From: a virus
Reading direction: 5' to 3' (one strand)
Length of the DNA stretch: 29,138 nt
Virus record (IMG/VR): IMGVR_UViG_3300034104_002713
Span: 1-29,138 of that record
In this document: positions 6,801 to 21,520 of the stretch, piece after piece
Layout of the letters: each line of letters starts with the position of its first letter
How positions within the stretch are numbered: position 1 is the stretch's first letter
Made by a program: the position numbers and the translations under genes
The notes under the pieces: model-generated
Database searches by the model: none
The model's input: the letters and a program-made list of their open reading frames with translations, nothing else
What the model was told of the DNA's origin: nothing

Positions 6801-7303
6801 CCGCCGGGAGGTCTTTGGCACAGGAGTGCAGTTCCTTCCTCCTCGCACTTTTCGGCGAATGCCGCGTCGGCGTTGAATCCGGTGACGTACACCTGACCCT
6901 CAAGGCCAGACGCAGCGGTTTGCCCTGGCGGGCATGTTCCAAACTGGAAGTCGGTGAACGGAATCATTTGGGGGAACGCGATCGAGGGCCATAGCGTCTG
7001 GTAGCAGCCCAGGTAGATAGAGTCACCCGAAACCACCAACTTCGTGCCGTCCCACACCAACTGATACTCAACCTGACACCCCAGTGCGTTGAGTTCGTAG
7101 GCGCAATCAAGGTCGCCGATGTAGGCGTCAGCAAAGCCTTGCTCCAGCGGTTCGGGAGCAGAGTCTCCGGAAATTCGCTGCACCCAGATAGGGATACTCG
7201 TCCCGGCCCAGCCGGAAGGGGTCACAGCGATTGACTGCGGCGCGCAGCACCGCATCTCGGGGCAGCAACACTGGCTCGTGTTGTTCGTCAAGAACGCGGG
7301 CAT
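3857..7303 (-). CDS. Large cysteine-rich tail spike / distal tail protein with GxGYE repeats
   Basis: A 1148-residue protein, the second largest in the window. It begins at ATG 7303, which overlaps the stop of the upstream gene by one base; the frame is open 45 codons further up, but that part lies within the neighbour. The N-terminus is strikingly Cys-rich (QCCCPEMRCCAP, residues 9-20) and many more cysteines follow. Three copies of a short beta motif, NPGSGYEVGQ, GGTGYEIDD and GGSGYEAGQ, lie at about bases 6199-6237, 5825-5858 and 5010-5050, each followed by a hydrophobic strand, as in beta-rich extracellular or virion proteins. Position after the tape measure and two distal tail proteins supports a baseplate, tail tip or host-recognition role. 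Oxidised cysteines may stabilise it outside the cell. No enzymatic motif seen. Confidence 0.7.
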   Translation of the reverse strand: MPAFLTNNTSQCCCPEMRCCAPQSIAVTPSGWAGTSIPIWVQRISGDSAPEPLEQGFADAYIGDLDCAYELNALGCQVEYQLVWDGTKLVVSGDSIYLGCYQTLWPSIAFPQMIPFTDFQFGTCPPGQTAASGLEGQVYVTGFNADAAFAEKCEEEGTALLCQRPPGGMDSIVYGPAGAHSRYPGRKTWLPDYNNSYICHRLTSDMRPEFTATVNRSTSSAAHDIDARIVFDVFCRRNWQFSANCNNYIIQSLSCAVSDTPPENPPEGSWYCIDYRCGPRQPANAEEPGICEQYKCTAHEGTVWPHLIAIPPEENFTANLRLILVPDKLYSNTEYGYQAAKPQKPISWRVGMVKILNPGSGYEVGQSFKVDFDPFWMNSLSGGEILLTFPDLDAGCLNFPITWRDKYGAGPEVDGFGVKRYYQSLRVVKVDEFGGIVDLEIVPWFRDPEFVPGACFVPVSAGNKTKNYPSYARVICHPNSVDIGGTGYEIDDTITFTPISPGVEVYADAIAKVVDIDDDGAVLDWQINGSDIWRYGFGMGNMFCYLATPDERGAYRWADKTDLCYLHWHGVGVPVRQADVSEIAGFHVNTGGLTQVSVTVKRVPCRTTISVIVNPYKYESISFEVFASSQEADQKTKLLKKYRPYPKCPGGGAQITPIIGADGANESAIGGPLAGGQVKSGGGYYAFVDKRHVAPILPKAVPDIGEGSGGVIGLFVLQQVLGFPRPDYADGELHEPAADRFSYFRVTDVTIANGGSGYEAGQEFEVKPEGGQQYANAWGRSGGDDPDANPNGAWYEGQNLNSNGHVPLELVVNGNSVIQEAFAHRDGVCRVLITDVDENGAILELQVLSGGLMYRTVWANGVRHPDVSVYTGSDTGFGARATVAINTDKTSATFGEVTSCTIVQIPIEESQDPLHSTQQNPVAIPLGGRDYANPKSGMMWEMENIEVGSTFGGSPATMLSYVPWHGWVYDAYHPENSTHDLIQGSHPPFHRRAEHCTLNECYHSLLNRSYPMYRLWTGMSVNGPYGQGGAPGAIGTPDRVESTNLCDQGQGLNSLSPLPSGSQFVNGNPKGPFGLYRLKGKVSEVYAPGPEGVECDSLNYELWRQPFNGPTANVGDYVVIEHGYSVSVAATIPVYPNCPDKDDGRTSP

Positions 7304-7818
7304 CAGCACTCCGCAGCGAGAAGAAGCCAAAGCGTGGTGTACGGACGCATCACGGGAACGTCCTGCCCTTCCACGTTGTCGTAGGCGCCCGTCCAATACT
7401 CGCCATCCACCGACGAGATCGGCAGGACGGCGCACCACATATACGAATCATTGCCGCTGCGCGTCGGGATGTACGAGAACAAGTTCATCGTCACGGCGAC
7501 GACTTCTTCTCCGTTGGCGTCAAGTTCTGGCACCCAATCGTTTGGCGTGCTGGCGTTTGAAGGTTGGACGTAGAGTTTGACCAACTTGAGATTGTCGGAG
7601 CCGGTCTGTCCCGGCTCGTTGTACCAGGCGCCTGTGAACTGCCCGAGGCGGATTGTGGTTCCACCGCCGCCCCGGCGGGGGGCCATCGTCTGCAGTCGCA
7701 CGGGCACCCTGGCGGCCCCACCTGACCCGAGCGGCGTTCCGTCAACACGCGCGATGACATCGCGAAGTTTGTCGCGAAGCCCGGGGCCGATCAAGTATCG
7801 CTCTGGCCTCTGAGCCAT
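7303..7818 (-). CDS. Distal tail / minor tail structural protein
   Basis: A 171-residue protein. The basic, helical N-terminus (residues 1-30, RPERYLIGPGLRDKLRDVIARV) is followed by a Gly-rich link (APRRGGGG, about 46-53) and a beta-rich domain with LGQFTGAWYNEPG. Its ATG at 7818 overlaps the previous TGA by one base, and its own TGA overlaps the start of the spike gene, so the three genes form a coupled unit downstream of the tape measure. I do not recognise a named family, but the layout (helical clamp plus beta domain) suits an adaptor joining the spike to the tail tip. Assignment rests on position. Confidence 0.6.
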   Translation of the reverse strand: MAQRPERYLIGPGLRDKLRDVIARVDGTPLGSGGAARVPVRLQTMAPRRGGGGTTIRLGQFTGAWYNEPGQTGSDNLKLVKLYVQPSNASTPNDWVPELDANGEEVVAVTMNLFSYIPTRSGNDSYMWCAVLPISSVDGEYWTGAYDNVEGQDVPVMRPYTTLWLLLAAEC

Positions 7819-8914: not shown

Positions 8915-9283
8915 TCAGCCCTCTGTGATGTCGACGCGAAGCCTGGCGCCTGTCGTTCCCTTGGCTTCGTACTCAGTGCCGCTGGCGAGCCTGAGCAGCG
9001 CGGCCTCGCCGGCTCGCAGCGTTGCGAAACTCAGGAACGACCCGCCAGCGTCGATGCCGATGGCGCAGGTCGACGCGGTGTGCGTGGAGAGGTTTCTCAT
9101 GTACGCCAGACCTACGGCCCCAAGGTTTGCCGTGCTTAGGCCAACGGCCGTGGACGAGAGCGTGTAGGTCTCGCTGCGGAGACCCGTCAGGTTCATGTTC
9201 GCGGTAACGCCGCTGACGCTCACCGTGTTGTCGAGGTTGTCCTTCGAGACGCGAAGTGATACTGAATAAGTGATGTCTGCCAT
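8915..9283 (-). CDS. Small beta-rich structural protein, possible paralogue of 16511-16999 and 17003-17488
   Basis: A 122-residue protein starting at ATG 9283 behind AAGGAAG. The C-terminal 70 residues follow the pattern LG...YMRNLS......IG.D.GG.F.....LRAGE..LLRL...T...A....RLRV.I.EG. The same order of elements (an N-L-S or N-T-G turn, a G-x-D/A-G pair, an R-x-x-L-x-x-G strand, a P or S turn and a final short strand) occurs in the two tandem proteins at 16511-17488. This suggests a shared small beta-sandwich fold, possibly a decoration or tail-attached domain. It follows the tape measure directly. The family is unnamed and the paralogy is my visual judgement. Confidence 0.6.
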   Translation of the reverse strand: MADITYSVSLRVSKDNLDNTVSVSGVTANMNLTGLRSETYTLSSTAVGLSTANLGAVGLAYMRNLSTHTASTCAIGIDAGGSFLSFATLRAGEAALLRLASGTEYEAKGTTGARLRVDITEG

Positions 9284-9292
9284 GCTGCTTCC

Positions 9293-12200
9293 TTACAGGT
9301 TCAGGACACCGGGCGGTGCGCCGTTTTCTCGTGCGATCCGAACAAGTTCTTCCAGGCTGGACGACTGCTTCTGCAGTTCGACGAGGTCTTGGTTCCTGGC
9401 CGAATCGTCGCCACGCAGGAGCCGGTTGAGTTCGGCGGCCCCCTGAGCCGTAGTTACGTCGCTGGCCTGGAGCGCCGCTCGCGACGGCCCTTGCAGGACG
9501 GCGTTCTGGACTTGGTCGGCGAGGCCGAAGATGGCGGGGGCTGCGGATCGAAACGATTCACCTATCAACCGCTGCTGGTCTGCGGCGAGGTCTTGCGGGT
9601 TGCCGATCTGGCCGGCGTCGAAAGCGGCCTGAAGATCGCGGAGGCTCCGGCCAAGTTCTCGGCCAGCCCTCTCGGATGGACTGAGGGCGAGTTCGCGGCC
9701 ACGGGCCTCGGCATTTTGCCGCTCCGCAATCGCGTTGGCTTCGTCTCTCGCCGCGATCGCCGAAGGGTCGGCCTGCGCGGCGGCGTCAACCTGATCCTGC
9801 AGACGGCGTCGCTCCGCAATCAGCGCGTCGCTGTTTGCGGCATTGCCTGCCAAGAGCGACTCGTTGATCTCTCTGATTCGGCGCAGAGACTCCGAGTTCG
9901 GGTCGACATCCCGCTCGATCCGCGTCCTGGCTGCGGTAACGGCATCCTGAACGCGAGCATCGGCAGCCCTCTGCTCGTCAAGGTCTCGGCGTGCCCTGTC
10001 GGCGTCAATCCGGTCGGCGTTGGTAGCCCCAGGCGCGGCGACCGCACGACGGGCCTCTTCCTCTCGCTGGGCGGCGGCCTGCACGTTTGCAGCCGACTCC
10101 TGAGTGGCCTTGTCGAGAGCCTCGGCAAAACGAGACAGCGCAACTGTGGCGGCCTCGACGGCAGCGGCCTGCTCGGCCAGACTCTGCAGTTGGGCCTGGG
10201 CCGCCTCCCTGACGACAGCATCCCTCGGGGACGCCTTCAGCGATTCTTCGACAGTCGTCCTCTCGGCCTCGATCTCCCGGAGCCGTCTGGCGAAGGCGCC
10301 GGAACCGAAACCGCTTGACTGAAGCGCTGCCGCAGCACGTTCAGCGATAGCGGCTGGAGTGCCCTGCGGATCGACCGTTGACCTGATGCGGAGAGCCCTG
10401 GCGGCCTGTGTCGCTGCGTCCCGATCGGCACGGCTTGCGTCAATCTTTGCCGTCTCTTCGGCGACGATGCGGTTCCGCTCCGAGTCGTCGATCCTGCCCC
10501 TCGACAGGTCTTCGTTTGCCCTGGAGATTCGCTTCTCGGAGGCCTGAATGCCTTCGGCGAGGGCGTCGAGAGACCCCTGAATGGCGACCGCCTCGGGGAT
10601 TCCGCGCTGAAGTGCGTCTGCGGCGTTCTCCTGCGCGGTGGCCAAGGACTGCGACGCGCTCTTGAGCGACTTGAAGAAGTCCGCAAGATCGCCTTCGCCT
10701 TGCAGCCTGAGCCGAAGTTGCTCAAGTTCGAGAATCGCCTGATTGGCCGCCTGCGCGGCGGCCGTCTCAAAGCCAAATGCCGTCTGGTTGCCAATTGGCG
10801 ACAGTTGGTCGATGAGATCCTGAATGCCGCTGGACTGCGCGGCGCGGTCGGCTGGCGAGTCCCCGAGCGGAAGCCCACGGGCGATGATCTGCGCCCGGCC
10901 GGCTGCCGCCCGAAGCAGCGGGCTCGCGTCGTACCCGAAGGCGGCGCCGGCCGACTCGCCGAGCCTGCCGGTCGCGATGGCGTCGACGGTCCCGGTGATG
11001 CCCTGAATGTTCCTTCTCGCCCGATCAAGGGCAGTGCCGACTCCGGCTACTGCGCCGGAAACGTCAGCGCCTGACGGCTGGCCGAGCGAAAGAAGCCTTT
11101 CTTCATCTTGCGAAATGCGCCTCGCGAGTAGCGCCCGTTGGCGCCGGATGGCGATGGCCCTGCCCGGCGAGGAGGCCTCTTCCTGCTGCTGCGCAAGCCG
11201 CTCGTCCTGCGACAGTCGGCGGACGCCAGCAATGTCCGTCGTCAGGAGGGACGCGCCCTGGAGTTCTCGCTGCTGACGAACGATCTTCTCAAGCGAATCC
11301 GCGAACTCGCTGGCCGATCGCGCTGCCTCAGAGAAAGCCGCCGACCCGAGGTTGCCAAAAGACTCTACGCTCTGCGCGACTTGCGATGCGAGGTTCTTCT
11401 GACGCTCAAAAGCCTTGCCAAGCGCCTTGCTCGTCTCCTCCGCTTCCTTCGCCGCCGTGACGTACCGGAGCAGCGCGCTGACAACCTGACCGCCAATGAC
11501 AACGCCAAGGCCGATTGCAAGGCCGGTGGTTGCCGAGAGTCCGGGGATGATTCCGGACTGCCCGAGAAGCAGGCCGAGTTGCGTGATGTTGTTGCCGATC
11601 GCACGAAGGCGGTACTCAAGCCCGCCCGTCGCCGAAATCAGATCGTCGATGGCGAAAAGCCCCTGCTGCGCCGCCAGTTGCGCCACGGCGGCGCTGCCGA
11701 CTCCAAAAGAACCCCTGTTCTTTAGCCCTCTTTCGGCTATGGCCCTGGCGCGGTCACGGCTAATGCCAATCGCGCCGCCCTCTCGGGACGCATCAGATAC
11801 CGTGTCAATAAATGCATCACTTCGCTGCCTTGCCGCGAACTCGACAGCGCGCCTGGCGCGGTTCCTGCTTTCCTCGCTCTTGAACTTTCCGTCGGCGATC
11901 TTCTGCTGCTTGGCGGCGAGTTTCTCAAAGAACTTCAGGTCTCGGTCGATTGCCTGCTCGACTGTTCTGCGGCCAGAAATGTTTCCTGCCTCGAAGTTTC
12001 CGGCCAACTGTCGCCCGGTAGAGATGAAACTTGCCGCGCGCTCAAGGTCGGCGCCGAGTTTGTCGCTGCGGCTGCCGGAGATGGAGAGAAACTGGTCGAA
12101 CCGCTTTCTGGCAGTCTCCGCTGACTTGAGTTTTGACTCAAATGCGTCGAGTTCTGGAAGCAGCGCTGCCAGTTTTGCTCTGTAGTTGTCTAACCCCTGC

Positions 12201-13648
12201 GCGCCTGCGGCCGTCGTCTTTGCATCGAATGCTGAACGGAGTGTCGAGTTTGCGTCGGCGGCCAGTTTCCTGATTTTGTCGAACTCTCCGGCTACGCCGG
12301 CGCTCTTGAGGTCTTTGACCCTCGAAGAAAGATCATCGAAACGCCCCGCGACGCTTCTGTTGAACTCCTCTCGCGACAGGGCGATGTCTTCCCGAAGGTT
12401 CACTGCGGCAACGGACGCCTGTCGCCTTCTGCCGAGGATCGGGCTAGCGCCGATGATGTTGTTTCGCTGAGTTTGGGCGTCGCGCCTGATCTTGTCGATC
12501 GTCCTTTCTGATTCAGTTCTGATCAGCGCGTCAGCCTTGTCGAAACCGCTTCTCCCGAAAGCCTTCGTCGCGTCTGCGGCTGCCAGCGCCTCGATGGCCT
12601 GCTTCGCCCGCTTCGCCGAGACCTCGCTGCGGTTGAGTTGCTCGATGACCCGGCCGACAGATGAGATCAGCCCGTCAAACCTCTGATCGTCGCCGTCTCG
12701 AAGTTTTGCCGACAGCGAGGACAACTTTTCGGTGAGTTTGTCGACCTGAGACGCGGCCTGCGGGGAGACAATCTGGCGGATGCTCGCGCTGCGGAGTTCT
12801 CGGTCAAAAAGGCTATTGATCGTCTCCTGGCGAGAGACCTCGCTGTCGAGCCTCTGCTGGGCGATGCCGCGAAACTGCAACTGTCGCGGCGTGACAGCGC
12901 GTCCGTTTCGCTCGGTGTTCGCGATAATCAGTTGCGCCCGGGCCACCCGGGCCGCAGCCCTGGCCACTCGCTCGGCGCTCTCCTCGGCCTGCACGGCGAG
13001 GTCGGCGAATACATCCGACCGGAAGGCCGCCGGCACGGCCTGGGCGCGGTTTCGCAGGTCAAGCGACCGCTGGAGCGAGTCTCTTGCCCTGGCCTGGAAG
13101 AACGACCCACCCGTATTGTTGGCATTGAGGGCGTCGGCCAGCCGGCCAAAGTCGCCTGCGGCTGCCGTCGCCCGGCCGAGAGCCACGATTCTGGCACGCA
13201 GGTTGTCGATCCGCTGCTCGGCGGCCGAGATCGTCGTCGTGCCAGAGCCGATTTCACGATACAGCCGCTGAAACCCTCCCTGAATCCGGTTGAGTTCCGG
13301 CGTCAGTTGGGACTGCAGGGCGTTCGACAGCCGCTCGACCTGATTTTTGACATCGGTCAGCGGCCTGCCGACATCCTCGAACGCTCGCAACTGCTGCCGC
13401 AGCCGGCCCGGATCTGGAAGGCCAGCGCCGAGCCCCTGCCGCTGGAGGTTCTGAATCTCCCGCAGCGTCCGCTGGAACCGCTGGAGTTGCGTCAGCGTGC
13501 CGTTTAGGGCACGGTTGTCGAGATTGAACTGCAGCCCACGAGCCTGCTGGGCGAACTGATTCAGTTCACGGCGTGCTGTGCCGATCTGGCGACTGAAGTC
13601 CTGCGTGTTCGCAGTCAGGACAGCCGAGATTTTGCCGAGCAGTGCCAT
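9293..13648 (-). CDS. Tail tape measure protein
   Basis: A 1451-residue protein, by far the longest gene, located directly after the tail assembly chaperone pair, the standard siphovirus position. The N-terminus (ALLGKISAVLTANTQDFSRQI) is the typical tape measure opening. Most of the chain is helical with high Q, R, E and A content and long coiled-coil stretches. A glycine-rich hydrophobic segment lies around residues 675-735 (LGLLLG, GLAIGLGVVIGG, VVSALLRYV), suitable for membrane insertion during DNA ejection. It sets tail length and occupies the tail lumen; at the usual rule of about 1.5 angstrom per residue the tail would be near 200 nm. ATG at 13648 sits five bases after the stop of the chaperone T frame. 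Confidence 0.95.
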   Translation of the reverse strand: MALLGKISAVLTANTQDFSRQIGTARRELNQFAQQARGLQFNLDNRALNGTLTQLQRFQRTLREIQNLQRQGLGAGLPDPGRLRQQLRAFEDVGRPLTDVKNQVERLSNALQSQLTPELNRIQGGFQRLYREIGSGTTTISAAEQRIDNLRARIVALGRATAAAGDFGRLADALNANNTGGSFFQARARDSLQRSLDLRNRAQAVPAAFRSDVFADLAVQAEESAERVARAAARVARAQLIIANTERNGRAVTPRQLQFRGIAQQRLDSEVSRQETINSLFDRELRSASIRQIVSPQAASQVDKLTEKLSSLSAKLRDGDDQRFDGLISSVGRVIEQLNRSEVSAKRAKQAIEALAAADATKAFGRSGFDKADALIRTESERTIDKIRRDAQTQRNNIIGASPILGRRRQASVAAVNLREDIALSREEFNRSVAGRFDDLSSRVKDLKSAGVAGEFDKIRKLAADANSTLRSAFDAKTTAAGAQGLDNYRAKLAALLPELDAFESKLKSAETARKRFDQFLSISGSRSDKLGADLERAASFISTGRQLAGNFEAGNISGRRTVEQAIDRDLKFFEKLAAKQQKIADGKFKSEESRNRARRAVEFAARQRSDAFIDTVSDASREGGAIGISRDRARAIAERGLKNRGSFGVGSAAVAQLAAQQGLFAIDDLISATGGLEYRLRAIGNNITQLGLLLGQSGIIPGLSATTGLAIGLGVVIGGQVVSALLRYVTAAKEAEETSKALGKAFERQKNLASQVAQSVESFGNLGSAAFSEAARSASEFADSLEKIVRQQRELQGASLLTTDIAGVRRLSQDERLAQQQEEASSPGRAIAIRRQRALLARRISQDEERLLSLGQPSGADVSGAVAGVGTALDRARRNIQGITGTVDAIATGRLGESAGAAFGYDASPLLRAAAGRAQIIARGLPLGDSPADRAAQSSGIQDLIDQLSPIGNQTAFGFETAAAQAANQAILELEQLRLRLQGEGDLADFFKSLKSASQSLATAQENAADALQRGIPEAVAIQGSLDALAEGIQASEKRISRANEDLSRGRIDDSERNRIVAEETAKIDASRADRDAATQAARALRIRSTVDPQGTPAAIAERAAAALQSSGFGSGAFARRLREIEAERTTVEESLKASPRDAVVREAAQAQLQSLAEQAAAVEAATVALSRFAEALDKATQESAANVQAAAQREEEARRAVAAPGATNADRIDADRARRDLDEQRAADARVQDAVTAARTRIERDVDPNSESLRRIREINESLLAGNAANSDALIAERRRLQDQVDAAAQADPSAIAARDEANAIAERQNAEARGRELALSPSERAGRELGRSLRDLQAAFDAGQIGNPQDLAADQQRLIGESFRSAAPAIFGLADQVQNAVLQGPSRAALQASDVTTAQGAAELNRLLRGDDSARNQDLVELQKQSSSLEELVRIARENGAPPGVLNL

Positions 13649-13652
13649 TTTG

Positions 13653-13949
13653 TTACTTCAGTTTCGCCAGTTCAGCCCACATCTCTTCCTGAGTCTGGTG
13701 CGGCCGTACCACTGACGGGACGAAGATTTTCTCTTCAGGCACCCGCTTGTAGTTGCCGCTCGCCGCCATGATGGTTCGGCAGATTCGTGCCGTTTGCCAC
13801 CAATGGTCAGGGAGCGGCCACCTCTGGTCGTAGGCGAACCACTCGCTCAGTTCTTCGGAGTCAATCTCACTCAACAGCCTCTTGACGGTCATGCCAAGCG
13901 CGAGCGCTAGGCGGAAATAGAATCTCCGCTCAGGTCGCTCGGTGAATCT
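13653..13949 (-). CDS. Tail assembly chaperone, T-frame (made as a -1 frameshift fusion)
   Basis: This frame is open from the slippery site at 13949-13955 to TAA at 13653, giving 98 residues after the shift. The first residues after the shift (RFTERPERRFYFRLALALGM) and the following TVKRLLSEI and ELSEWFAYDQ match the lambda gpT / minor tail protein T pattern, in which a hydrophobic R-x-x-L-A-L-G-M segment is followed by S-x-E-L-x-E-W. Only the part from 13892 has its own ATG and it has no good Shine-Dalgarno, so production as a G-T fusion of 111 + 98 = 209 residues is the better reading. It would bind the tape measure during tail assembly and be absent from the virion. Confidence 0.85.
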   Translation of the reverse strand, partial: RFTERPERRFYFRLALALGMTVKRLLSEIDSEELSEWFAYDQRWPLPDHWWQTARICRTIMAASGNYKRVPEEKIFVPSVVRPHQTQEEMWAELAKLK

Positions 13950-14281
13950 TTTCCCAGGCCTTCCACAGCCTCCTGCGTAAAGGCGTTGTGTGCCCAGGCC
14001 TTCTCGAACAGCCGGTTGATGACGACGCTCGACTTCTTGCCAAGCGCGTCAGTGTCGTCGTCCGAGAACAGGCGTTCGCCGGAGTCGTCGCACAGCGTCA
14101 GGACGAGGAACCGGACGCGGAACGACTTCATCTTCTGCTCGGCGTAGGACTCCTCGAACGCGTCTCGCTCAAGGCCGGAGAGCGTCTTGACGAACACATC
14201 GCCCTTCCATTCCGGCACCGGAATGGCATCACTGAGTCGAACGTCCTTCGCAGCGAGGATTGCAGTCTTGCTGAGAGCCAT
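13907..14281 (-). CDS. Tail assembly chaperone, G-frame
   Basis: A 124-residue acidic/helical protein between the tail tube genes and the tape measure. It starts at ATG 14281 behind AAGGAA. The middle (residues 25-90) with GDVFVKTLSGLERDAFEE, FRVRFLVLTLCDDSGERLF and LFEKAWAHNAF is the pattern of short phage tail chaperones (lambda gpG analogues): 'L.g.ER..fE....' followed by 'R..L...t..dedG..lF'. The last 13 codons after the slippery site are read only when no frameshift occurs. It is predicted to coat the tape measure with the G-T fusion and recruit tail tube subunits. Confidence 0.88.
   Translation of the reverse strand: MALSKTAILAAKDVRLSDAIPVPEWKGDVFVKTLSGLERDAFEESYAEQKMKSFRVRFLVLTLCDDSGERLFSDDDTDALGKKSSVVINRLFEKAWAHNAFTQEAVEGLGKDSPSDLSGDSISA
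13949..13955 (-). other. Programmed -1 ribosomal frameshift site (G_GGA_AAA)
   Basis: On the minus strand the heptamer reads GGGAAAA. In the chaperone G frame it is divided as G GGA AAA (preceded by CT), which is exactly the X XXY YYZ form, and differs from the lambda G-T site (GGGAAAG) only in the last base. A shift of -1 here avoids the TAG at 13907 and continues without a stop into the T frame. Shift and frames were checked codon by codon. Confidence 0.9.
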
Positions 14282-14298
14282 GGGATTCCTTTTGTCGC

Positions 14299-14664
14299 TT
14301 AGTCTGTGAGGTTGATCAAAAAAGACGCCTGCCCGCGAATAACGTCACCAACAGCCATCTCGTGCGTGAGGGACTCCACGGCGGCCAACTTGGTGATGTT
14401 GATACTCGGAGACGATATTGAGAGGGTCCCGGTGGCCCCCTGCATGAACAGCGGGGCAGGCGTGGTCGCAGTCCGGATGAACTCGATCGACACCTTGGGC
14501 GCCGTGAGGATGGCACCGGTGGCAACCAGCCGCCGGTAGCCCACGGGGTCGGCGATGGCCGTCATGTCGACGACCTCGCTCTGCGCCTCCTCTATCGAGA
14601 TAGAGGTGACGTTCGCGGAAAACCCGCTGAACGAAAAAGTCGTGCCATGCGACGAGATCGCCAC
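14299..14664 (-). CDS. Tail tube protein candidate, copy 2
   Basis: A 121-residue protein starting at a GTG at 14664 with a strong GGGAGG site five bases upstream. Its N-terminus (SSHGTTFSFSGFSANVTSI) and its 'VDMTAIADP' and 'GTLSISSP' strands align by eye with the neighbouring 110-residue protein at 14688-15020, so the two are tandem paralogues. The layout, a short beta hairpin followed by T-S-I, then a V-D-x-T segment, is that of siphophage major tail tube subunits. The position just upstream of the chaperones supports this. Which copy builds the tube, or whether the tube is mixed, cannot be decided from the sequence. Confidence 0.75.
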   Translation of the reverse strand: MAISSHGTTFSFSGFSANVTSISIEEAQSEVVDMTAIADPVGYRRLVATGAILTAPKVSIEFIRTATTPAPLFMQGATGTLSISSPSINITKLAAVESLTHEMAVGDVIRGQASFLINLTD

Positions 14665-14687
14665 TGCCGCCTCCCGTCACGCATTGA

Positions 14688-15020
14688 TCAAGCGAGCCGG
14701 AAGGTGGCAGAGCCTCGCACGAAGTCGCCCACCGAGCCGCCGATGCTGGCCGTCGAGCAGGTCGCGGTGCCACTGATCGAAAACGGCCCCGAGATGCTGA
14801 GTTGCCCAGACACGCCGGCAGTGAGGATCGTGGTCGAGATGTAGTCGATCTGCACCTCGCGCTCGGTGGCGAAGCCGCCGATAAACACACGCCGCGCGTT
14901 CGGGGCGATGCCAAGGTGGGTCGCGTCGAGGAGGTCTTGCGAGTCATTGACCTGCACAGAAGTCACGGTGATGGTGCTGCCACCGAACGTGAACGTCATT
15001 CCCTGTGACGAAACGGACAT
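14688..15020 (-). CDS. Tail tube protein candidate, copy 1
   Basis: A 110-residue protein at ATG 15020 behind an AAGGAGG site. It shares with the downstream neighbour the start 'SS.G.TF.F.G', a 'VTSV/I' strand, a 'D.T.L/I' segment, an 'R.V..GG/ATG' turn, 'GQLSIS.P' and a final 'VGDF/VRG.A.F'. Both copies are short compared with typical tail tube proteins (about 130-250 residues), which fits a single tube domain without an added Ig-like domain. The strong ribosome site suggests high expression, as expected for a repeated subunit. Confidence 0.75.
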   Translation of the reverse strand: MSVSSQGMTFTFGGSTITVTSVQVNDSQDLLDATHLGIAPNARRVFIGGFATEREVQIDYISTTILTAGVSGQLSISGPFSISGTATCSTASIGGSVGDFVRGSATFRLA

Positions 15021-15049
15021 TTGCGTGCGCCTCCTTGCGCGAGAGAGTG

Positions 15050-15478
15050 TTAGCCGGTAGCCTCAGTCCAACGAATCTGAAACAGTTGCCGCACTTCGTA
15101 GGCTGGGGGCAGTTGCGCCCCGACCGCCGTGGGATCGAGGAAGTCGTCGACCTCGGACACCAGCCTCATATCGTGTATTGTAACCCCAGATAGTGTGCCA
15201 GTGTGGCCATCCAAGGCCAGCCGGACCTCGTCGGCCAACTCCTTCGCGCCGTCGTAGGACAGCGACCACGAGGCCACCTGCATGGAGACCTCGGGCATGA
15301 AAAGCGGGGTGTTCGAGAGCGTGCCCTCGCGACGGACGTTCGCCCGCTTGTAGATGATGAACGGCATGGCGGCCCCCTTGGGCACGGCGATCGGGTAAAT
15401 CTGGAACCCGACCAGCCGGGCCACGCCCGGGGCCGAAGTCAGCCGCGTGTAGATATGCCGTTCCGGCAGCAGAAGCAT
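15050..15478 (-). CDS. Tail terminator / tail completion protein (DUF3168-like)
   Basis: A 142-residue protein with the order expected for the tail completion family: an N-terminal helix with L and V positions (RLTSAPGVARLVGFQIYPI), a strand PFIIYKRANVRREG, a strand MPEVSMQVASWSLSYDGAKELADEV, a loop with L-D-G-H-T-G and a C-terminal strand YEVRQLFQIRW. In this family the protein caps the tail at the head-proximal end and sets its length with the tape measure. The ATG at 15478 overlaps the previous TGA by one base (TGATG). The same frame is open for another 300 codons upstream, but that part overlaps two other genes and is not coding. Confidence 0.75.
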   Translation of the reverse strand: MLLLPERHIYTRLTSAPGVARLVGFQIYPIAVPKGAAMPFIIYKRANVRREGTLSNTPLFMPEVSMQVASWSLSYDGAKELADEVRLALDGHTGTLSGVTIHDMRLVSEVDDFLDPTAVGAQLPPAYEVRQLFQIRWTEATG

Positions 15479-16200
15479 CAGAGAGCCCCCGAGACTGCGG
15501 CGTTGATCGCGTCGATCAGCCCGTTGCGGATGATGCCCTGAACCTGGGTCCGCCGGGCGTTGATGGTGTTTTCCATGAGGTGATAGGCCGGCATGGCACC
15601 GTAGTCCTCGCCCGGGTGCAGGGTGAACGGCCGGGGGCCGTCTCCGGCGTCCGGAAGGAAGTCGTGGGTGTACCCACGGCCGGCACGGGCCTGCCTCGTC
15701 GGCTCCCGCCACGAGGACATCAGGAAGTAGTACCCACGGCCGCGCCTCGAAAAATCGTCGCTGTCTTCGAGTTTGGCCACCTTGGTCATGCGGCGATTGA
15801 TGATCTGGTGGACGTTGACGTAGGTCTTGCGGGTTCCGCGAGACTGCGGTCGGCGGCGGCCGTTTGACCCAAATTCCACCAGCCAACTGTGATTCCCGCT
15901 TGCAACCTCGCCGGTGGCCCCCTGGTTGCCGGTGTGCCTTGGGCCGGCGATGGCGACAGTGACGCCGGGGCGGTAGGTCCGCACCTTGCTCGTGGTGCTG
16001 CGGGCGAGGTTCCCGGTGGCGTCGTGCCTCGCCGCTGCCGCCCGGTAGGTGTTGACGATCGGCCGAGCCGCCCGGCTCATGATGGCTTCGAGTGTCGTGC
16101 CGGCGGCCAGGATGCCGGCGACGTTCTCCAGTGTGTCGATGACGGGCTCGACCCCTCGAACGTCGATCCGAACGAAAGCGCGTGCGGCTGCGAGAGACAT
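15478..16200 (-). CDS. Head-tail joining / HK97 gp10-like protein
   Basis: A 240-residue protein. The N-terminal half has the HK97 gp10-type pattern: an AR/R-x-x-V-R-x-D-V-R-G strand, a long helix (TLENVAGILAAGTTLEAIMSRAARPIVNTYRAAAARH) and TGNLARSTTSKVR, followed by a beta strand with GPRHTG and the typical 'HSWLVEFGS' box. The C-terminal 100 residues, with GRGYTHDFLPDAGD and a final amphipathic helix, are longer than in the usual family (about 130-150 residues in total). It is thought to act at the head-tail neck. ATG 16200 overlaps the previous TAA by one base (TAATG). Confidence 0.72.
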   Translation of the reverse strand: MSLAAARAFVRIDVRGVEPVIDTLENVAGILAAGTTLEAIMSRAARPIVNTYRAAAARHDATGNLARSTTSKVRTYRPGVTVAIAGPRHTGNQGATGEVASGNHSWLVEFGSNGRRRPQSRGTRKTYVNVHQIINRRMTKVAKLEDSDDFSRRGRGYYFLMSSWREPTRQARAGRGYTHDFLPDAGDGPRPFTLHPGEDYGAMPAYHLMENTINARRTQVQGIIRNGLIDAINAAVSGAL

Positions 16201-16514
16201 TACTGCACCTCTTTGGCGAGGATTTCCAGCGCGGTGCTGTTGTCCCTGGACACGACGCTGGCAATCTCCATCGTCTTGCCGTCGCAGATGAGCCTGTCGG
16301 TGTGGACAACGTCACTGCGGTAGCGAATGCGGATCTTGTGCGTGGCCACGACGTTTGCCTGCTGGGCCTGGAGGATGTCCCTTGAAGACAGCCCGTCAAC
16401 GCTGCCCCAGACAGTCGCGACCGTGACCCACGACAGCGTGGTCTCGCCAGACGGGCTGCGAGACTCCGACGGCCGCTGAATGGTCACTCTGTCGCGGAGT
16501 TTGCCAATGTTCAC
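16200..16514 (-). CDS. Head closure / head-tail adaptor protein
   Basis: A 104-residue protein with the typical start 'IGKLRDRVTIQRP' and 'VTVATVWGSVDGLS', followed by 'VVATHKIRIRYRSDV' and 'RLICDGKTMEIASV'. This is the head-tail joining family (SPP1 gp16-like, Phage_H_T_join). It plugs the portal after packaging and provides the docking surface for the tail. It starts at a GTG at 16514 overlapping the TGA of the upstream gene (GTGA). Length matches the family. Confidence 0.85.
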   Translation of the reverse strand: MNIGKLRDRVTIQRPSESRSPSGETTLSWVTVATVWGSVDGLSSRDILQAQQANVVATHKIRIRYRSDVVHTDRLICDGKTMEIASVVSRDNSTALEILAKEVQ

Positions 16515-16999
16515 GAGACTGTGCCCTCGCCAATGAGGACGATTTCGTATGAGCCGGCAGTTTCAGTTGCGTTGAAGACGGCAATCCCGGCGGTGGTGCC
16601 TGCGGTCGACCATCCTGCGGCCCCCGGGGCGACCAGCGCGACCGCGCCTCCAGGGGGCACAAGGACGCCTCTTTCAGCGACGAATGGGCCGGAATACCAA
16701 TCGCCGGCCCTCCCGAGTTCAAGTTCGACGGTGCCGGTGTTCTTGAAATAGACAGCCTTGAGGGCTGCCATCGCGATCGTCCCGCGATCGTCAGCGAAGC
16801 CGGAGAACGCATACACCTCGTCGCCGTTATCCTGAACAGTCGCGGACGCGCTGAACGCAACCTGCGCCTGGTTCGCTCCAGTGCCGTCCGAGAACGCGAC
16901 GGCGTAGGTGGCGGGAGTTACTCGCATCTGCCTGGACAAGTCTCCACTCGACGACTCGTGGGCGACCATGGATAGGAGGACTTGGGCTGAAAGCGGCAT
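16511..16999 (-). CDS. Small beta-rich structural protein (tandem copy B)
   Basis: A 162-residue protein, rich in A, V, G and T. It carries 'AALKAVYFKNTGTVELELG', 'LVPPGGAVALVAPG' and ends with 'AGSYEIVLIGEGT'. The gene just before it (17003-17488) has the same order of strands and a near-identical ending, 'SSYEIFVMGN'. The two probably arose by tandem duplication and then diverged. ATG at 16999, three bases after the neighbour's stop. Position between connector and closure proteins points to a virion surface or neck decoration role; there is no enzymatic motif and I cannot name the family. Confidence 0.65.
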   Translation of the reverse strand: MPLSAQVLLSMVAHESSSGDLSRQMRVTPATYAVAFSDGTGANQAQVAFSASATVQDNGDEVYAFSGFADDRGTIAMAALKAVYFKNTGTVELELGRAGDWYSGPFVAERGVLVPPGGAVALVAPGAAGWSTAGTTAGIAVFNATETAGSYEIVLIGEGTVS

Positions 17000-17002
17000 C
17001 GG

Positions 17003-17488
17003 TCAGTTCCCCATAACGAAGATTTCGTAGGACGAGCCGCTCACGCCGCCGATGCGCAGGCGGCTGCCGCCCGAGGTGGTGGCAAATCCGCTGGAGTTCG
17101 GGCACGACAGAAGATACGAGCCGCCGGCCCGGATAGGCATTCCCCGCAGCGTCAGGCTGCCGAGGTTGATCATTGGGGCGAAGTTCCACGCCAGCGTGTC
17201 AACAATGAAGTTCCGAAAATCCACGCCGTTGTAGCCAGCCGAAAGCGCCATGTCCGACGACGACAAGTTCTTGACGCACAGGAGTTTGACGGCCGAGACG
17301 CCGAGCGTGGAGAAGTCGATGTCGTCGAAACCAAAGGCACCGACGGCCCTGCGGTCGCTCCAGACCTTCGAGCAGTCGCCGACGGAGACGGAAATACTGA
17401 GCGGGTGCTGATCGACAGACGACGTAAGCCCAGACTGAGCCGTCTTCGTCGCCTTGATGTCGACAACAACCTGCGCGGCCAGCGTCAT
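17003..17488 (-). CDS. Small beta-rich structural protein (tandem copy A)
   Basis: A 161-residue protein starting at ATG 17488 overlapping the connector stop (ATGA). The N-terminal part is a strand-rich stretch (AAQVVVDIKATKT, HPLSISVSVGDCS). The C-terminal part has 'SAVKLLCVKNLSSSDMALSAG', 'LRGMPIRAGGSYLLSCP' and ends in 'GSSYEIFVMGN', similar in layout to copy B and to 8915-9283. The frame is open 271 codons further upstream, but that part lies on top of the connector gene and is a shadow. Probably a virion-associated beta sandwich; the family is unknown. Confidence 0.65.
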   Translation of the reverse strand: MTLAAQVVVDIKATKTAQSGLTSSVDQHPLSISVSVGDCSKVWSDRRAVGAFGFDDIDFSTLGVSAVKLLCVKNLSSSDMALSAGYNGVDFRNFIVDTLAWNFAPMINLGSLTLRGMPIRAGGSYLLSCPNSSGFATTSGGSRLRIGGVSGSSYEIFVMGN

Positions 17489-18135
17489 CGGTATCCGCCC
17501 CACCCTGACGCGGCCATCAGGGTGTCGAACGTCGTCGGGATCGGGAGGATCTGCGAGTAGCCGGCGACCACGGGCTGCCGGGTCTCGTACCAGTGCGCCA
17601 CGAGAAGCAGGATGGCGTGCTTGAGCGTGTTTGGCGCGCTGGCGCCGGAGGCGCCGTACCCGGCCGACCAGCGGACGGTGACGCTGTTCTCGTCGCCTCG
17701 AACCGCCGGCCAAGTCTCCTGATAGTTGGGATAGATCCTGCCAGGGGTCGCGTAGTGGTCGATCTGGAAGGCCGACGCCGCGCTGGTGATCGTCCGATTC
17801 GTCCCGGCCTCGTCGCGATAGATGACCGTGACGGTACCGCTCTGCATCGGCGGCCTGGGCAGGACAATCTCCCACAGCGGGAAGCAGTCGTAGCGCGCCT
17901 CCCAGACGGTCGTGATGATCGAAATGTCGAGGATCTCCTCGACATACTGCCTCGCCGTCGAGATCAGCGTCGTCAGGTACGAATCCTCGTCGCTGGAGTC
18001 GACGCGGCACTGAACCTTCGCCTCCGCAAGCGTCACGGGCTCGACGGCCGGCGCAGTGTGGCGAACGAGGCTGCGGTACGGCGTGACGCTCGACGACGGC
18101 TCGCCGGGGATGCCGTAGCGGATAGTGATGGTCAC
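17485..18135 (-). CDS. Head-tail connector protein (gp6 / gp8-like)
   Basis: A 216-residue protein. The core has the typical connector order: 'APAVEPVTLAEAKVQCRVDSSDEDSYLTTLISTARQYVEEIL' (helical bundle, with the common 'P.tL.eaK.h.rvd...eD..l..li..Are..E' pattern), then beta strands ('YDCFPLWEIVLPRPPMQSGTVTV'), and a C-terminal helical part 'LKHAILLLVAHWYETR' with the common H-W-Y-E-x-R box. It would form the ring below the portal. It starts at a GTG at 18135 overlapping the upstream TGA (GTGA), and its TGA overlaps the next ATG (ATGA). Confidence 0.88.
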   Translation of the reverse strand: MTITIRYGIPGEPSSSVTPYRSLVRHTAPAVEPVTLAEAKVQCRVDSSDEDSYLTTLISTARQYVEEILDISIITTVWEARYDCFPLWEIVLPRPPMQSGTVTVIYRDEAGTNRTITSAASAFQIDHYATPGRIYPNYQETWPAVRGDENSVTVRWSAGYGASGASAPNTLKHAILLLVAHWYETRQPVVAGYSQILPIPTTFDTLMAASGWGGYR

Positions 18136-18326
18136 TTGAACCTCTTCTTTCCTTGCGGCTGGACAGCCCGTTCCGCCTGCCGCTCAACGGCCGCCACCTC
18201 GACCGCGCGGTCCTCGACCTGGGCGACGAGGCCTCTCGCGACCAGCACGCGGGCCATGCCGTCGCCCCACTCGAACTCGCTGCCGACCTTGTAGCCGCCA
18301 AACGGCTTGACGATGCGAACTCTCAT
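18132..18326 (-). CDS. Small phage protein of the 'K-P-F-x-x-x-K-x-G' type
   Basis: A 64-residue protein, ATG at 18326 overlapping the glycosyltransferase stop (ATGA) and TGA overlapping the connector start (GTGA). The first 35 residues (VRIVKPFGGYKVGSEFEWGDGMARVLVARGLV) show the pattern of small proteins often found next to phage connectors, 'K-P-F-r-g-y-k-x-G ... a-x-x-L-v-x-r-G-x-a', probably a small SH3-like beta barrel. The tail is charged (E, R, K). Role unknown; position suggests a virion or neck accessory factor. Confidence 0.65.
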   Translation of the reverse strand: MRVRIVKPFGGYKVGSEFEWGDGMARVLVARGLVAQVEDRAVEVAAVERQAERAVQPQGKKRFK

Positions 18327-19051
18327 TTCATGAACCCCCAGGCGTCTTCGGGCGGGGTCTTGTCCAGATTCCAGAACTCGGTGCAGTGCTGCTGAACCTT
18401 GCCGTCCGGGACCGACCGCGACGGCCAAGTGATCATCAGTTCGGCGTGACCAACGCTGATGTTGGTTGCGATGCCCAACTTGTTGCCAGAGGAGCAGAAC
18501 TTCTTCCAGAAGTAGATGTCCTCGTCAATATGCCCACCGCGATAGTCGCCGCTGTCGCTGGCCTGGGCCAGAAAGAACGGCTTGCCCATCTTCTTGATGG
18601 CTGACGTTCGGATGAACGTGCAGCCGAAGTGGGCCGTCTCGACGGGCTGCACCGGCTTCGAGAACCAATCCGCCTCGACGGTCGCCTTGTCCTCCGGGCT
18701 GACGCCCGGCAGGGCGAACATGACCGTATTGGCCTCGCGCTTGGTCTGCAGCGGGGCGATTGCGTCGTACCCCGAATACATCATCAGCGTGAGGAGCGCC
18801 TCGACGGTCCTCGACGTAAAGATCGTGTCGTAGTCGATCGTCAGAATGACATCGTGCGACTCGATCGTGTCTTCCATGCACCGCTGCAGGCACTGCCCCC
18901 AGAACGCGCCGGTGTATTTGATCGGCGAGATCCGGTGTGGTGCCAGCGCTGCGGTGACGCAGAAGAAATTATCAGTGAAGCCGAGGCGGGGGCAACTCAT
19001 CAGAGCGGCCACCTTGACCTCGGCTTCACACTGACCTACACGAACCAGCAT
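18323..19051 (-). CDS. GT-A fold glycosyltransferase-like protein
   Basis: A 242-residue protein. The centre contains a strand plus D-x-D motif, VILTIDYDTIF (Asp73, Asp75), the metal and sugar-nucleotide binding signature of GT-A glycosyltransferases, and 'GGHIDEDIYFWKKF' (about residues 195-208), a typical acidic 'EDxxF' acceptor-side box. The N-terminus (EVKVAALMSCPRLGF) is the first Rossmann strand. There is no membrane span. It lies between the capsid-associated gene and the connectors, unusual for an enzyme, and its Shine-Dalgarno (AAGGAG, six bases before the ATG at 19051) lies in a hairpin. It may modify a virion protein, a host surface glycan or modified DNA; the sequence does not decide. 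Confidence 0.75.
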   Translation of the reverse strand: MLVRVGQCEAEVKVAALMSCPRLGFTDNFFCVTAALAPHRISPIKYTGAFWGQCLQRCMEDTIESHDVILTIDYDTIFTSRTVEALLTLMMYSGYDAIAPLQTKREANTVMFALPGVSPEDKATVEADWFSKPVQPVETAHFGCTFIRTSAIKKMGKPFFLAQASDSGDYRGGHIDEDIYFWKKFCSSGNKLGIATNISVGHAELMITWPSRSVPDGKVQQHCTEFWNLDKTPPEDAWGFMK

Positions 19052-19128: not shown

Positions 19129-19575
19129 TCAGCCCTTGACCAGACCGATGACGTTGGTTTCCGCAGCCGTCACGGGTGCTTCTTCGGCGCGGCCGAGCCG
19201 CGCGACGATGCCAACCGTGGCGGTCGCACCGGGCGAGTAGGACACCTTGAGGTATCGCTTCTTCGCCTTGGTGTCGACATCCATCTTCAGCACAGCCGCC
19301 GAGGCGGTTCCTGCCACAGAGATGGCCGGAATGCTGAAGCCACCGGTGCCGCCTCCGACGAGGGCAGTGACGTTCGAGAAGTTGGCGTTGCTCTCGTCCG
19401 ACTCCTCGACCTTGACGGCGGTGGCGAACACGGTCGACGCGTTCGAGGCACGCACAACCGTGATGCTGGCGTGGTCGTAGCCAAGGGTGTCAATCGTCAT
19501 CGTGGCCGTGGCCGTGGCGCCCACCGCAGCGGTGGGCAGTTCGGCGACGATCCGTTCGTTCTGGGAGTGAATCAT
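19129..19575 (-). CDS. Capsid-associated beta protein (decoration candidate)
   Basis: A 148-residue protein directly downstream of the major capsid gene. It starts at ATG 19575 behind AAGGAG (spacing about ten). It is rich in A, T, V and S with alternating hydrophobic residues: 'AVGATATATMTIDTLGYDHASITVVRAS', 'ANFSNVTALVGGGTGGFSIP', 'KKRYLKVSYSPGATATVGIVARLGRAEEAP'. This looks like a small beta sandwich (head decoration or fibre base). Position next to the capsid gene and its good ribosome site suggest a high-copy virion part. I know similar unnamed proteins from phage structural modules but cannot name this family. Confidence 0.65.
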   Translation of the reverse strand: MIHSQNERIVAELPTAAVGATATATMTIDTLGYDHASITVVRASNASTVFATAVKVEESDESNANFSNVTALVGGGTGGFSIPAISVAGTASAAVLKMDVDTKAKKRYLKVSYSPGATATVGIVARLGRAEEAPVTAAETNVIGLVKG

Positions 19576-19593
19576 GCTGTCATGGCTCCTTTA

Positions 19594-20931
19594 TCACGAG
19601 GCGGCCGAACGGAGGGCAACCACGGGGCCGACCTCGCTGTTCGTGCCAAGGGAGTGGTGGTTCACATCGAATCGCATCGTGCCCTGGAGGAGCAGTTGAT
19701 CGGTGGTCGCGTAGACCTGATCGAACAGCCGCACCGAGAAGTCCCGACGACGGGCGTAGATGCTGGACAGGCCCATGTTGCCGAACAGAACCTTCACCTT
19801 GCTGGTGTCGGCACCGAGCGTGCTGTTGAGGACATGCACCATTCGCACTGGGTATCCCAGGAACGTCTCGCCAGCGTCGCGGCCGAGGTTGTCGACCGTG
19901 TTGCCGCCAGCCGCGTACTTCAGGCGGCTGATGCTGGCCGCGTAGCCGGCCGGAGAGACGTACCACGCGGCGCCCTGGCGGGCGTACAGCGGCAACTTGC
20001 CCATGGCACCGAGGAAGTCCTCGATGTCGAGGGTCTCGAACGAGGTGTTGCCCGACGCGGCGGAATGCACCGACGCCGTATGCGTGCCGTCGTTGATCTT
20101 GTTCACGACGCCGTTGATGCCGCCGAACTGGCTGGTGCCGTCGCCGAGCCAGCCGCAGGTGTCGATCTTGTACGCCAGCGAGGTGGCGAACTCGGCAGCC
20201 ACGGCGTCGGCCAGCGACACCAGGGCATCCTCGACAACCTCGCTCGACATCCGGCAGGACACCGCGAGTTTCTTGGCCGTCAGCGAGACGTTCGCATAGG
20301 TCGGCTCGCTCTCGGTCACGCTCGACCCCTCGCCCACAAAGTAGGCGGTGGTGCCCGAAATCCGCTTGGGCACCACGAGGGTGTCGCGGTTCATCGACAC
20401 GTTCTCGGCGGCGCCGGGGAAGGTGCCGAAGGTCTCGACCAGCCGGATGACCCGGTTGGCGAACTCCTCGGGAACCAGCGCGCCGCCGGCCGAGTTGCTG
20501 CCCTCGTTCAAGGCGCGGCTCTCGACGCCGTGGTCACGGCACCACCGGAGATCGTCCTCGCTGCGGAACACCGTGGCCCGGAGCCAGCGGCCGCAGCGAT
20601 AGGCCGACTCAACCGCTTCGGCCGAGTCGTTGAAGGCCCGAAGGGTCGTGTGATGCGGGTGGATCGCCCGGATCTCGGCCTTCTTCGGCGCCTCGGCCGG
20701 GGCCGGCGTGGGGGCCGGGGCGGCCCGCTCGACCACCGAGCGAAGTTCCGCCTCCTTGGCGGCCAGCCTCTGCTCGAACTCCAGATCGGACTTGACCTTG
20801 TCCGCCTCGTCCGTCAGCCGACGGAGTTCTGCGGTCTGCTCCTCCGACCGCTCCTCGATGTCGGCGAGTTCGTTGAGGCGAGCGGCGATGGCCGCGGCAC
20901 GATCCTGAAGACGCTTGAGGTTGGAAGCCAT
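19594..20931 (-). CDS. Major capsid protein, HK97 fold
   Basis: A 445-residue protein starting at ATG 20931 behind AAGGAG; an in-frame upstream start at 21054 lies in the structured leader and is unlikely. Residues 1-85 form a charged coiled coil (LKRLQDRAAAIAARLNELADIEERSEEQ and on), the scaffolding 'delta' domain found in HK97-type capsids, followed by a Pro/Ala linker (about 68-80) that probably includes the cleavage region near residues 85-110. The mature part has the usual HK97 features: 'GGALVPEEFANRVIRLVETFGTFPGAAENVSMNRDTLVVPK', 'ELVSRMSSEVVEDAL'-like region with 'SCRMSSEVVEDALVSL', and 'GWLGDGTSQFGGINGVV'. The upstream prohead protease is the expected processing enzyme. Confidence 0.95.
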   Translation of the reverse strand: MASNLKRLQDRAAAIAARLNELADIEERSEEQTAELRRLTDEADKVKSDLEFEQRLAAKEAELRSVVERAAPAPTPAPAEAPKKAEIRAIHPHHTTLRAFNDSAEAVESAYRCGRWLRATVFRSEDDLRWCRDHGVESRALNEGSNSAGGALVPEEFANRVIRLVETFGTFPGAAENVSMNRDTLVVPKRISGTTAYFVGEGSSVTESEPTYANVSLTAKKLAVSCRMSSEVVEDALVSLADAVAAEFATSLAYKIDTCGWLGDGTSQFGGINGVVNKINDGTHTASVHSAASGNTSFETLDIEDFLGAMGKLPLYARQGAAWYVSPAGYAASISRLKYAAGGNTVDNLGRDAGETFLGYPVRMVHVLNSTLGADTSKVKVLFGNMGLSSIYARRRDFSVRLFDQVYATTDQLLLQGTMRFDVNHHSLGTNSEVGPVVALRSAAS

Positions 20932-20963
20932 TTGGCTGTTGCTCCTTGTCTGAGCCAGCCAAA
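20931..20963 (-). promoter_or_regulatory. Hairpin enclosing the Shine-Dalgarno of the capsid gene
   Basis: Bases 20931-20938 and 20956-20963 are an exact 8-base inverted repeat, and 20941-20944 with 20952-20955 add four inner pairs with a seven-base loop and a two-base bulge. The transcript's AAGGAG lies in the loop and inner stem, and the last base of the outer stem is the A of the capsid ATG. The structure may hold the ribosome site in a fixed form, delay translation or protect the 5' end. Confidence 0.6.
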
Positions 20964-20966
20964 CGC

Positions 20967-21009
20967 AAAAAAGCGGCGGCTGGCGGGGTGTTTCCCGCAA
21001 GCACGCCGC
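20967..21009 (-). terminator. Terminator-like hairpin in the capsid leader
   Basis: On the minus strand an outer stem GCGGCG (21004-21009) / CGCCGC (20973-20978) and an inner stem GCGGG (20994-20998) / CCCGC (20983-20987) with a six-base loop are followed at once by six T residues (20967-20972). This is the form of a Rho-independent terminator with an interior loop. It sits only 36 bases before the capsid start, so it may act as an attenuator or as a partial stop rather than a full terminator. Confidence 0.5.
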
Positions 21010-21039
21010 GACAAGAATCCTCAAGTCGCTCGCACTGCT

Positions 21040-21061
21040 CTCCGCGAAATCCATCGCGGAG
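21040..21061 (-). other. Strong 8-bp hairpin in the capsid leader
   Basis: CTCCGCGA at 21040-21047 and TCGCGGAG at 21054-21061 are exact inverted repeats with a six-base loop. There is no T-run. It is the first of three hairpins between the upstream gene and the capsid gene and could be an RNA-processing or stability element. Confidence 0.55.
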
Positions 21062-21073
21062 CAATATGTCTAC

Positions 21074-21107
21074 CTGTAGCCTACAGAGCCGCCGCAGCGC
21101 GGTGCAA
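21074..21107 (-). promoter_or_regulatory. Weak candidate promoter with palindrome upstream of capsid gene
   Basis: On the minus strand TTGCAC (21102-21107) and TAGGCT (21078-21083) are 18 bases apart, a poor match to a sigma-70 type promoter. The -10-like hexamer lies within a 13-base palindrome CTGTAGGCTACAG (21074-21086) that could be an operator. Evidence is weak and rests on position in the only sizeable gap of the head module. Confidence 0.25.
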
Positions 21108-21123
21108 GTCAGTCGGCGGGCGG

Positions 21124-21513
21124 CTACGAGACGATCGTCGCCTTGACGCCCCACTTGGCAAGAAACGCCACAGCGTCTTCGTACAGTTCAGCGCGAGTCT
21201 TGTCGGAGTCGATGTATTCCTTGATGCGGCTCTCGCCGAACTCCTCGCGGAGCATCCCCAGCGGCGCCGACTCGTCGTCGGCCTCCCACCCCATCGTGTC
21301 GTAGTCGAACCACGCGTACCAGCCGCTGCCTTGGATGAACTGGGTCGACGGCGGAAGCGCTGCCACGGCGGCGTCGAGGTCCGCCTGCGTGTCCGGGGTC
21401 TGCTTCGGCCAATCGGCGTTGTCGAGGTCGTCATCCGGCGACGCGTCGCCGTAGTCCCACCCCTCTTCGTCGCTCCCCGTTGGGTTGAGCGCGTACTCGT
21501 CGTCGGCTGTCAT
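21124..21513 (-). CDS. Small acidic protein of unknown function
   Basis: A 129-residue protein; the start chosen is ATG 21513, seven bases after the stop of the ADP-ribosyltransferase-like gene, with a weak TAGGTG site. The first 45 residues are very acidic (TADDEYALNPTGSDEEGW, DDDLDNADW). The second half is a mixed alpha/beta part with WYAWFDYDTMGWEADDES and a C-terminal helix 'RAELYEDAVAFLAKWGVKATIVS'. The acidity is notable since the neighbour upstream is strongly basic, so the two may interact or one may mask the other. It is unlike known scaffold proteins in length. Function unknown. Confidence 0.6.
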   Translation of the reverse strand: MTADDEYALNPTGSDEEGWDYGDASPDDDLDNADWPKQTPDTQADLDAAVAALPPSTQFIQGSGWYAWFDYDTMGWEADDESAPLGMLREEFGESRIKEYIDSDKTRAELYEDAVAFLAKWGVKATIVS

Positions 21514-21520
21514 TTTGCAC

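Follow-up and report, generated by a model that had tools for sequence, protein, structure and literature searches.

Near the end of a short tail gene on the minus strand of an IMG/VR virus record, a second frame opens in the −1 register and runs on to the gene that follows. The record, 29,138 bases in all, is the window referred to below. Are these two genes, or is this one gene with two products that are joined by a slip of the ribosome? A −1 slip near the end of a tail-assembly gene is a feature of λ and of many other tailed phages. An earlier note on this DNA had proposed that a λ-type programmed −1 frameshift joins the two frames at GGGAAAA; the heptamer of λ G-T is GGGAAAG.

Predicted slip site and protein families of the two halves

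The coordinates of the features are collected in Table 1.

Table 1. Features of the G-T locus and its neighbours (positions in the window).
Feature	Position	Strand	Basis
Slippery heptamer GGGAAAA, read G_GGA_AAA	13949–13955	minus	Register in ORF; same register in relatives
G gene, tail assembly chaperone, 124 aa; ATG at 14281, TAG at 13907–13909	13907–14281	minus	phrog_344
T frame (−1), 98 residues past the slip plus stop, Phage_tail_T domain	13653–13949	minus	PF06223, phrog_337
Predicted G-T frameshift fusion, 209 residues	13653–14281	minus	Translation across the slip; phrog_14766 with both halves in order
Next gene, 1451 aa, probable tape measure protein	9293–13648	minus	Position and length; very weak phrog_1535 (E = 0.28) and phrog_22829 (E = 0.5)
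Preceding gene, probable major tail protein	14299–14664	minus	Position and weak similarity to Dubu major tail protein
First start codon (ATG) of the T frame in the window; probably internal, not a start	13890–13892	minus	AAA in 3 of 19 clusters
T-frame Leu codon CTA holding the G-frame stop TAG	13908–13910	minus	Codon counts, 19 clusters
SD-like AGGAGG, candidate stimulator, 13 nt upstream of the heptamer	13969–13974	minus	Anti-SD pairing
Possible hairpin, from 7 nt past the heptamer	13901–13941	minus	z = −3.8 for the window, 53-nt stretch

The heptamer lies near the end of G in the phase that the earlier note had given it, with its first G at the third position of a G-frame codon. The G-frame TAG starts 46 nt past this first G. 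After the heptamer the −1 frame reads RFTERPERRFYFRLALALGM... and continues to a stop at 13653. Translated across the slip, the fusion has 209 residues plus the stop; thus the frame, the peptide and the fusion length that had been put forward were all right on retranslation. GGGAAAA occurs twice in the window, against a mean of 2.87 expected from shuffles. Because this is not above chance, the presence of the heptamer alone is no evidence. What goes beyond chance is how the heptamer is phased, how near it lies to the G stop and how well it is conserved. A chance heptamer is rejected on phase and place, both conserved in 134 of the 138 sequence-distinct loci listed below.

G matches phrog_344, a tail assembly chaperone family, over residues 1–120 (E = 4.6e-28). 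Its score against PF06222 (Phage_TAC_1, λ gpG) is 20.2 bits, under the gathering cut-off of 25. T matches PF06223 (Phage_tail_T, λ gpT) at 27.9 bits, over the cut-off of 25.9, through residues 32–99 of the T-frame ORF P0002, and it matches phrog_337 from residue 8 of that ORF (E = 5.2e-11). The expectation that the T-frame product is gpT-like is borne out by the PF06223 match. The term λ-type thus suits the architecture and the T protein better than it suits G: the logic is that of the λ G/GT pair, G scores under the cut-off of its λ family, and the heptamer, GGGAAAA, is not the GGGAAAG given for λ. The profile phrog_14766 (224 aa) takes in both halves, with the end of G at profile positions 62–120 (weak, E = 0.042) and T at 123–189 (E = 5.3e-05). 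The top match of the G profile is a solved tail assembly chaperone, the HK97-type protein 2ob9, at a non-significant E = 0.063. NCBIfam yielded no match to either protein at E values up to 1. Taken together, the matches support the assignment of both halves, as judged by sequence, to the kinds of protein expected of a tail chaperone frameshift pair.

The two frames in relatives

Three scans gave 202 listed loci, of which one scan contributed the best 80 of at least 583 confirmed. The sample leans towards close relatives, and the counts that follow are counts among the loci listed. Both halves are found in 193 of the 202; the other 9 have no T match. A profile scan of genome contigs confirmed 43 of 259 pattern matches; the genome-contig scan with a single protein confirmed no relatives among 73. 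Removal of exact duplicates around the G stop leaves 138 loci, many of them still closely related. T lies in the −1 frame of G in all 138. A strong heptamer occurs in the slip phase in 134. The remaining two phases over this stretch have one in 3 and 2 loci, and the slip phase of a stretch further upstream in G has one in a single locus of the 138. The strong set consists of GGGAAAA/C/G, GGGGGAA and AAAAAAA/C/G, and was partly chosen after the data had been seen. Measured against the T profile, none of the 134 sites is more than 6 nt from a common position. Four of the 138 loci have no motif of the strong set, and one locus, L208, has no motif of any kind.

One listed relative (L148/L169), 61% identical in G, is found on an IMG/VR contig of 14,043 bases. 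The same match comes from a contig of equal length in a bin that carries the label Planctomycetaceae and was assembled from a metagenome, which hints weakly at the host group.

The close set starts from 80 listed IMG/VR loci. Three of them (L045, L079 and L081) were left out for lack of a T match, and the set comes to 78 with the window. All 78 carry a heptamer in the same register: GGGAAAA in 52 and GGGGGAA in 26. Removal of the short loci L008, L077 and L078 and of exact duplicates gives 49 loci, which form 19 clusters at 93% identity. Across these clusters the most variable codon position is the third position of G before the heptamer and the third position of T after it. Within the overlap, from +7 to +45, the second position of G varies most (mean entropy 0.89) and the second position of T least (0.25). 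With positions counted from the first G of the heptamer, the breakpoint scores for the switch of frame are 49.89 at +16/+17 nt, 49.57 at +13/+14 and 49.14 at +4 to +7, as opposed to 35.74 at the T-frame ATG (+63). That is, the variability changes from the G pattern to the T pattern no more than about 20 nt from the heptamer, well ahead of this ATG. The T-phase signal in +7 to +62 was reached by 1 of 20,000 column permutations, a test that ignores phylogeny. Thus, the T frame is under selection from near the heptamer onward.

This result bears on the main rival, namely that T is a separate gene of 79 aa that starts at the ATG at 13892, the heptamer being incidental. In the window, T-frame start codons begin with this ATG, and 16 of the 19 clusters keep it. 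The Phage_tail_T match lies wholly past it, a fact that is neutral between the two readings. Against a separate start, the T frame is conserved ahead of the ATG, the phrog_337 match begins 14 residues ahead of it, no SD-like sequence is seen by eye close before it, and in 3 of the 19 clusters (L026, L028 and L046) its place is taken by AAA. Furthermore, from its upstream stop to the heptamer the T frame of the window has no start codon. As none precedes the ATG, the conserved segment between heptamer and ATG is reachable only by a change of frame. A start at 13892 is accordingly rejected on T-frame conservation, the breakpoints and the loss of the ATG in 3 of 19 clusters, and we consider a separate T gene in the window very improbable.

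The relatives are not uniform in this respect. A stop shuts off the T frame no more than 9 nt upstream of the heptamer in 7 of the 19 clusters; in 11, the window included, whatever stretch lies open upstream of the heptamer has no start codon. A T-frame start (ATG, GTG or TTG; the nearest 42 to 162 nt away) lies upstream of the heptamer in 8 of 19 clusters, and a TTG lies between the heptamer and the ATG position in 4 of 19. In some relatives, then, a separate T start would be allowed by the codons alone.

The G stop leaves its own mark on the T frame. The T-frame Leu codon at the G stop is CTA in 18 of 19 clusters. Elsewhere CTA accounts for 7 of the 170 remaining Leu codons of the T frame and for 2 of 234 Leu codons in G. 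In the clusters of L054 and L057 the G stop has shifted to 3 nt past the heptamer, and the codon there is again CTA. We read the rare CTA as a probable sign of selection to keep the short product as well. Since the G stop is found 3 nt past the heptamer in the IMG/VR relatives L054–L078, the tail of G after the slip is dispensable. The remaining rival holds that transcriptional slippage joins the frames, or that they are a single gene broken by an indel error. It is less probable still: GGGAAAA is a run-like sequence, but a short one; the two-frame layout recurs in cultured phages and, across many samples, in 138 sequence-distinct listed loci; and the G stop is retained by means of the rare CTA.

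Known systems and candidate stimulators

A megablast search of window positions 9000–18000 against cultured phages gave no match. At the protein level the nearest parallels are the Streptomyces phages Dubu (gp13/gp14) and phiSASD1 (gp35/gp35.1), in which, as in the window, G is followed by T in the −1 frame ahead of the tape measure position. Their G proteins are 32% and 37% identical to that of the window, respectively. The T frames of both include RPER-FYFRLA--LGM, like that of the window, and in both phages the two pieces are annotated as joined chaperone genes. They differ from the window in having GGGAAAC at the same place, with the G stop immediately past it. Among five cultured phages, GGGAAAC is found in Dubu, Yara and phiSASD1 and GGGAAAG in HK542; in Rhodococcus phage Madraxi the scan found no heptamer. 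The annotation of Yara, Madraxi and HK542 keeps the two genes separate. HK542, an HK97-type E. coli phage (F864_gp11/gp12), has the gene order of the window, with the first base of its heptamer 10 nt before the G stop and a −1 frame of 99 aa; it differs from the window in T, where the identity is 28%.

The layout, place and logic of the chaperone frameshift were already known, as parts of two papers attest (PMC5009743 and PMC10885494). In experiments reported in PMC3711429, frameshifting came to 6% and 7% for two genes from a cluster that resembles an HK97 protein. A passage of PMC4066793 calls G_GGA_AAA inefficient in earlier E. coli tests, and the same paper places V_VV.A_AA.R motifs on its efficient list. 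For corynephage phi16, a section of PMC5506516 proposes an internal SD (GAGG) together with a slippery site, similar to the arrangement in the window. The site of phi16 is GGGGGAA and is followed by a proposed pseudoknot, unlike the window, with GGGAAAA and no conserved structure. GGGGGAA is also found among the window's relatives, and in a passage of PMC10885494 it is the only sequence reported for the 'fivetwo' motif class of PRFect in SEA-PHAGES genomes.

The AGGAGG zone has the strongest anti-SD pairing between −120 and +60, both in the window and in the mean of the 19 clusters. This element may raise slippage at the heptamer; its spacing of 13 nt exceeds slightly the 8–11 nt stated for stimulatory SDs in part of PMC6321510. 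The zone was compared with 12 control zones per locus in 61 loci thinned to less than 85% identity. It is stronger than all 12 in 23 of the 61, against about 5 expected from rank alone, and in two loci (L202 and L203) it exceeds none of the 12. Kinship ignored, the mean anti-SD energy by heptamer is as follows: GGGGGAA, −8.7 (13 loci); GGGAAAA, −7.1 (12 loci); GGGAAAC, −6.2 (18 loci); AAAAAAC, −5.9 (13 loci); AAAAAAG, −5.7 (1 locus); and AAAAAAA, −2.7 (4 loci), with controls at −3.1. The zone is thus not above the control mean in the four AAAAAAA loci. As for codon choice, the Glu codon at the SD-like site is GAG in 18 of 19 clusters vs. 149 of 175 Glu codons across G. This synonymous test of GAG against GAA gives no clear independent signal. 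The Glu there is mostly conserved, and constraint on the protein may instead account for the AGGAGG. A tentative and rather unlikely proposal is that, inside a single chaperone family, the heptamer changes among GGGAAAA, GGGGGAA, GGGAAAC and A-rich forms at a fixed place, while the strength of the SD-like element shifts along with it and so would keep the G:GT ratio steady.

Single-sequence folds past the heptamer lean modestly to structure. Over three stretches the mean z of the 19 clusters is −1.5, −1.8 and −1.7, and that of the window −3.8, −3.0 and −1.5; a hairpin in the window is a possibility. A downstream stem conserved as a consensus of the 19 clusters was not found (energy −0.73, compensatory change in 1 of 9 pairs). 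Among pseudoknot-free folds of the 19 clusters, a conserved stimulatory structure of the dnaX kind is therefore rejected.

Proposed products and gene neighbourhood

A programmed −1 frameshift at GGGAAAA, by which the locus would yield the 124-aa G protein and a minority of the 209-aa G-T fusion, is almost certainly the right reading. The joining of two tail assembly chaperone frames that the earlier note proposed is supported by the register, the open fusion, the families and the 138-locus comparison. The reading rests on T in −1 and the slip-phase heptamer across the loci listed; on the switch of variability near the heptamer, the CTA at the G stop and the joined annotation of Dubu and phiSASD1; and on the family matches of both halves along with one PHROG that spans them. 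Counted against it are the verdict of inefficiency on G_GGA_AAA, the motif-less loci, the two-gene annotation of Yara, Madraxi and HK542, the lack of a conserved downstream structure, and the T-frame starts upstream of the heptamer in relatives.

We infer from sequence the slippage itself, its rate and the functions of the proteins in this phage, as follows. Most ribosomes would read G to its TAG and make the chaperone. In a minority, the tRNAs paired with GGA in the P site and with AAA in the A site would move back one base to GGG and AAA, and these ribosomes would go on to make the fusion. By analogy with λ, G would bind the tape measure protein, the T part would recruit the major tail protein, and the ratio of the two products would matter. 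For λ, a G:GT ratio of 30:1 is given in a passage of PMC5009743.

For this phage, the result fixes the annotation: one gene, two products. The mechanism is textbook, and nothing here goes beyond the known kind except the size of the natural series. The uncultured relatives share the two-frame layout but differ in heptamer, in the spacing between it and the G stop, and in the SD-like element; such a large series could teach which parts set the chaperone ratio.

The minus strand also carries genes for the terminase small and large subunits, portal, head maturation protease, capsid and a tail completion/terminator domain, followed by the probable major tail protein, G, T and the probable tape measure gene. 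The nearby genes, from terminase to tail completion, are counted in favour of the frameshift. In order and lengths, the flanks of G-T fit a major tail protein and a tape measure protein, as in Dubu; the sequence matches of both neighbours are weak. The product of the upstream neighbour is 33% identical to the Dubu major tail protein over 45 aa (E = 4e-05 in a single comparison) and has no family match in Pfam or PHROGs.

Four other minus- or plus-strand frames of the window deserve mention. In the 449-aa ORF at 15050–16399 (minus), the tail completion/terminator domain occupies the last third only (residues 315–419); its start has perhaps been placed too far upstream, unless the protein carries an additional N-terminal part. 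The 1193-aa protein at 3857–7438 (minus) has no PHROG match at E 0.01 and a sub-threshold Pfam match. Within the structural region, the 242-aa ORF at 18323–19051 (minus) matches a glycosyltransferase below threshold, with 21.2 bits against a cut-off of 27. Lastly, a 701-aa open frame at 19471–21576 (plus) is antisense to the capsid gene and is probably a shadow ORF of high-GC coding sequence.
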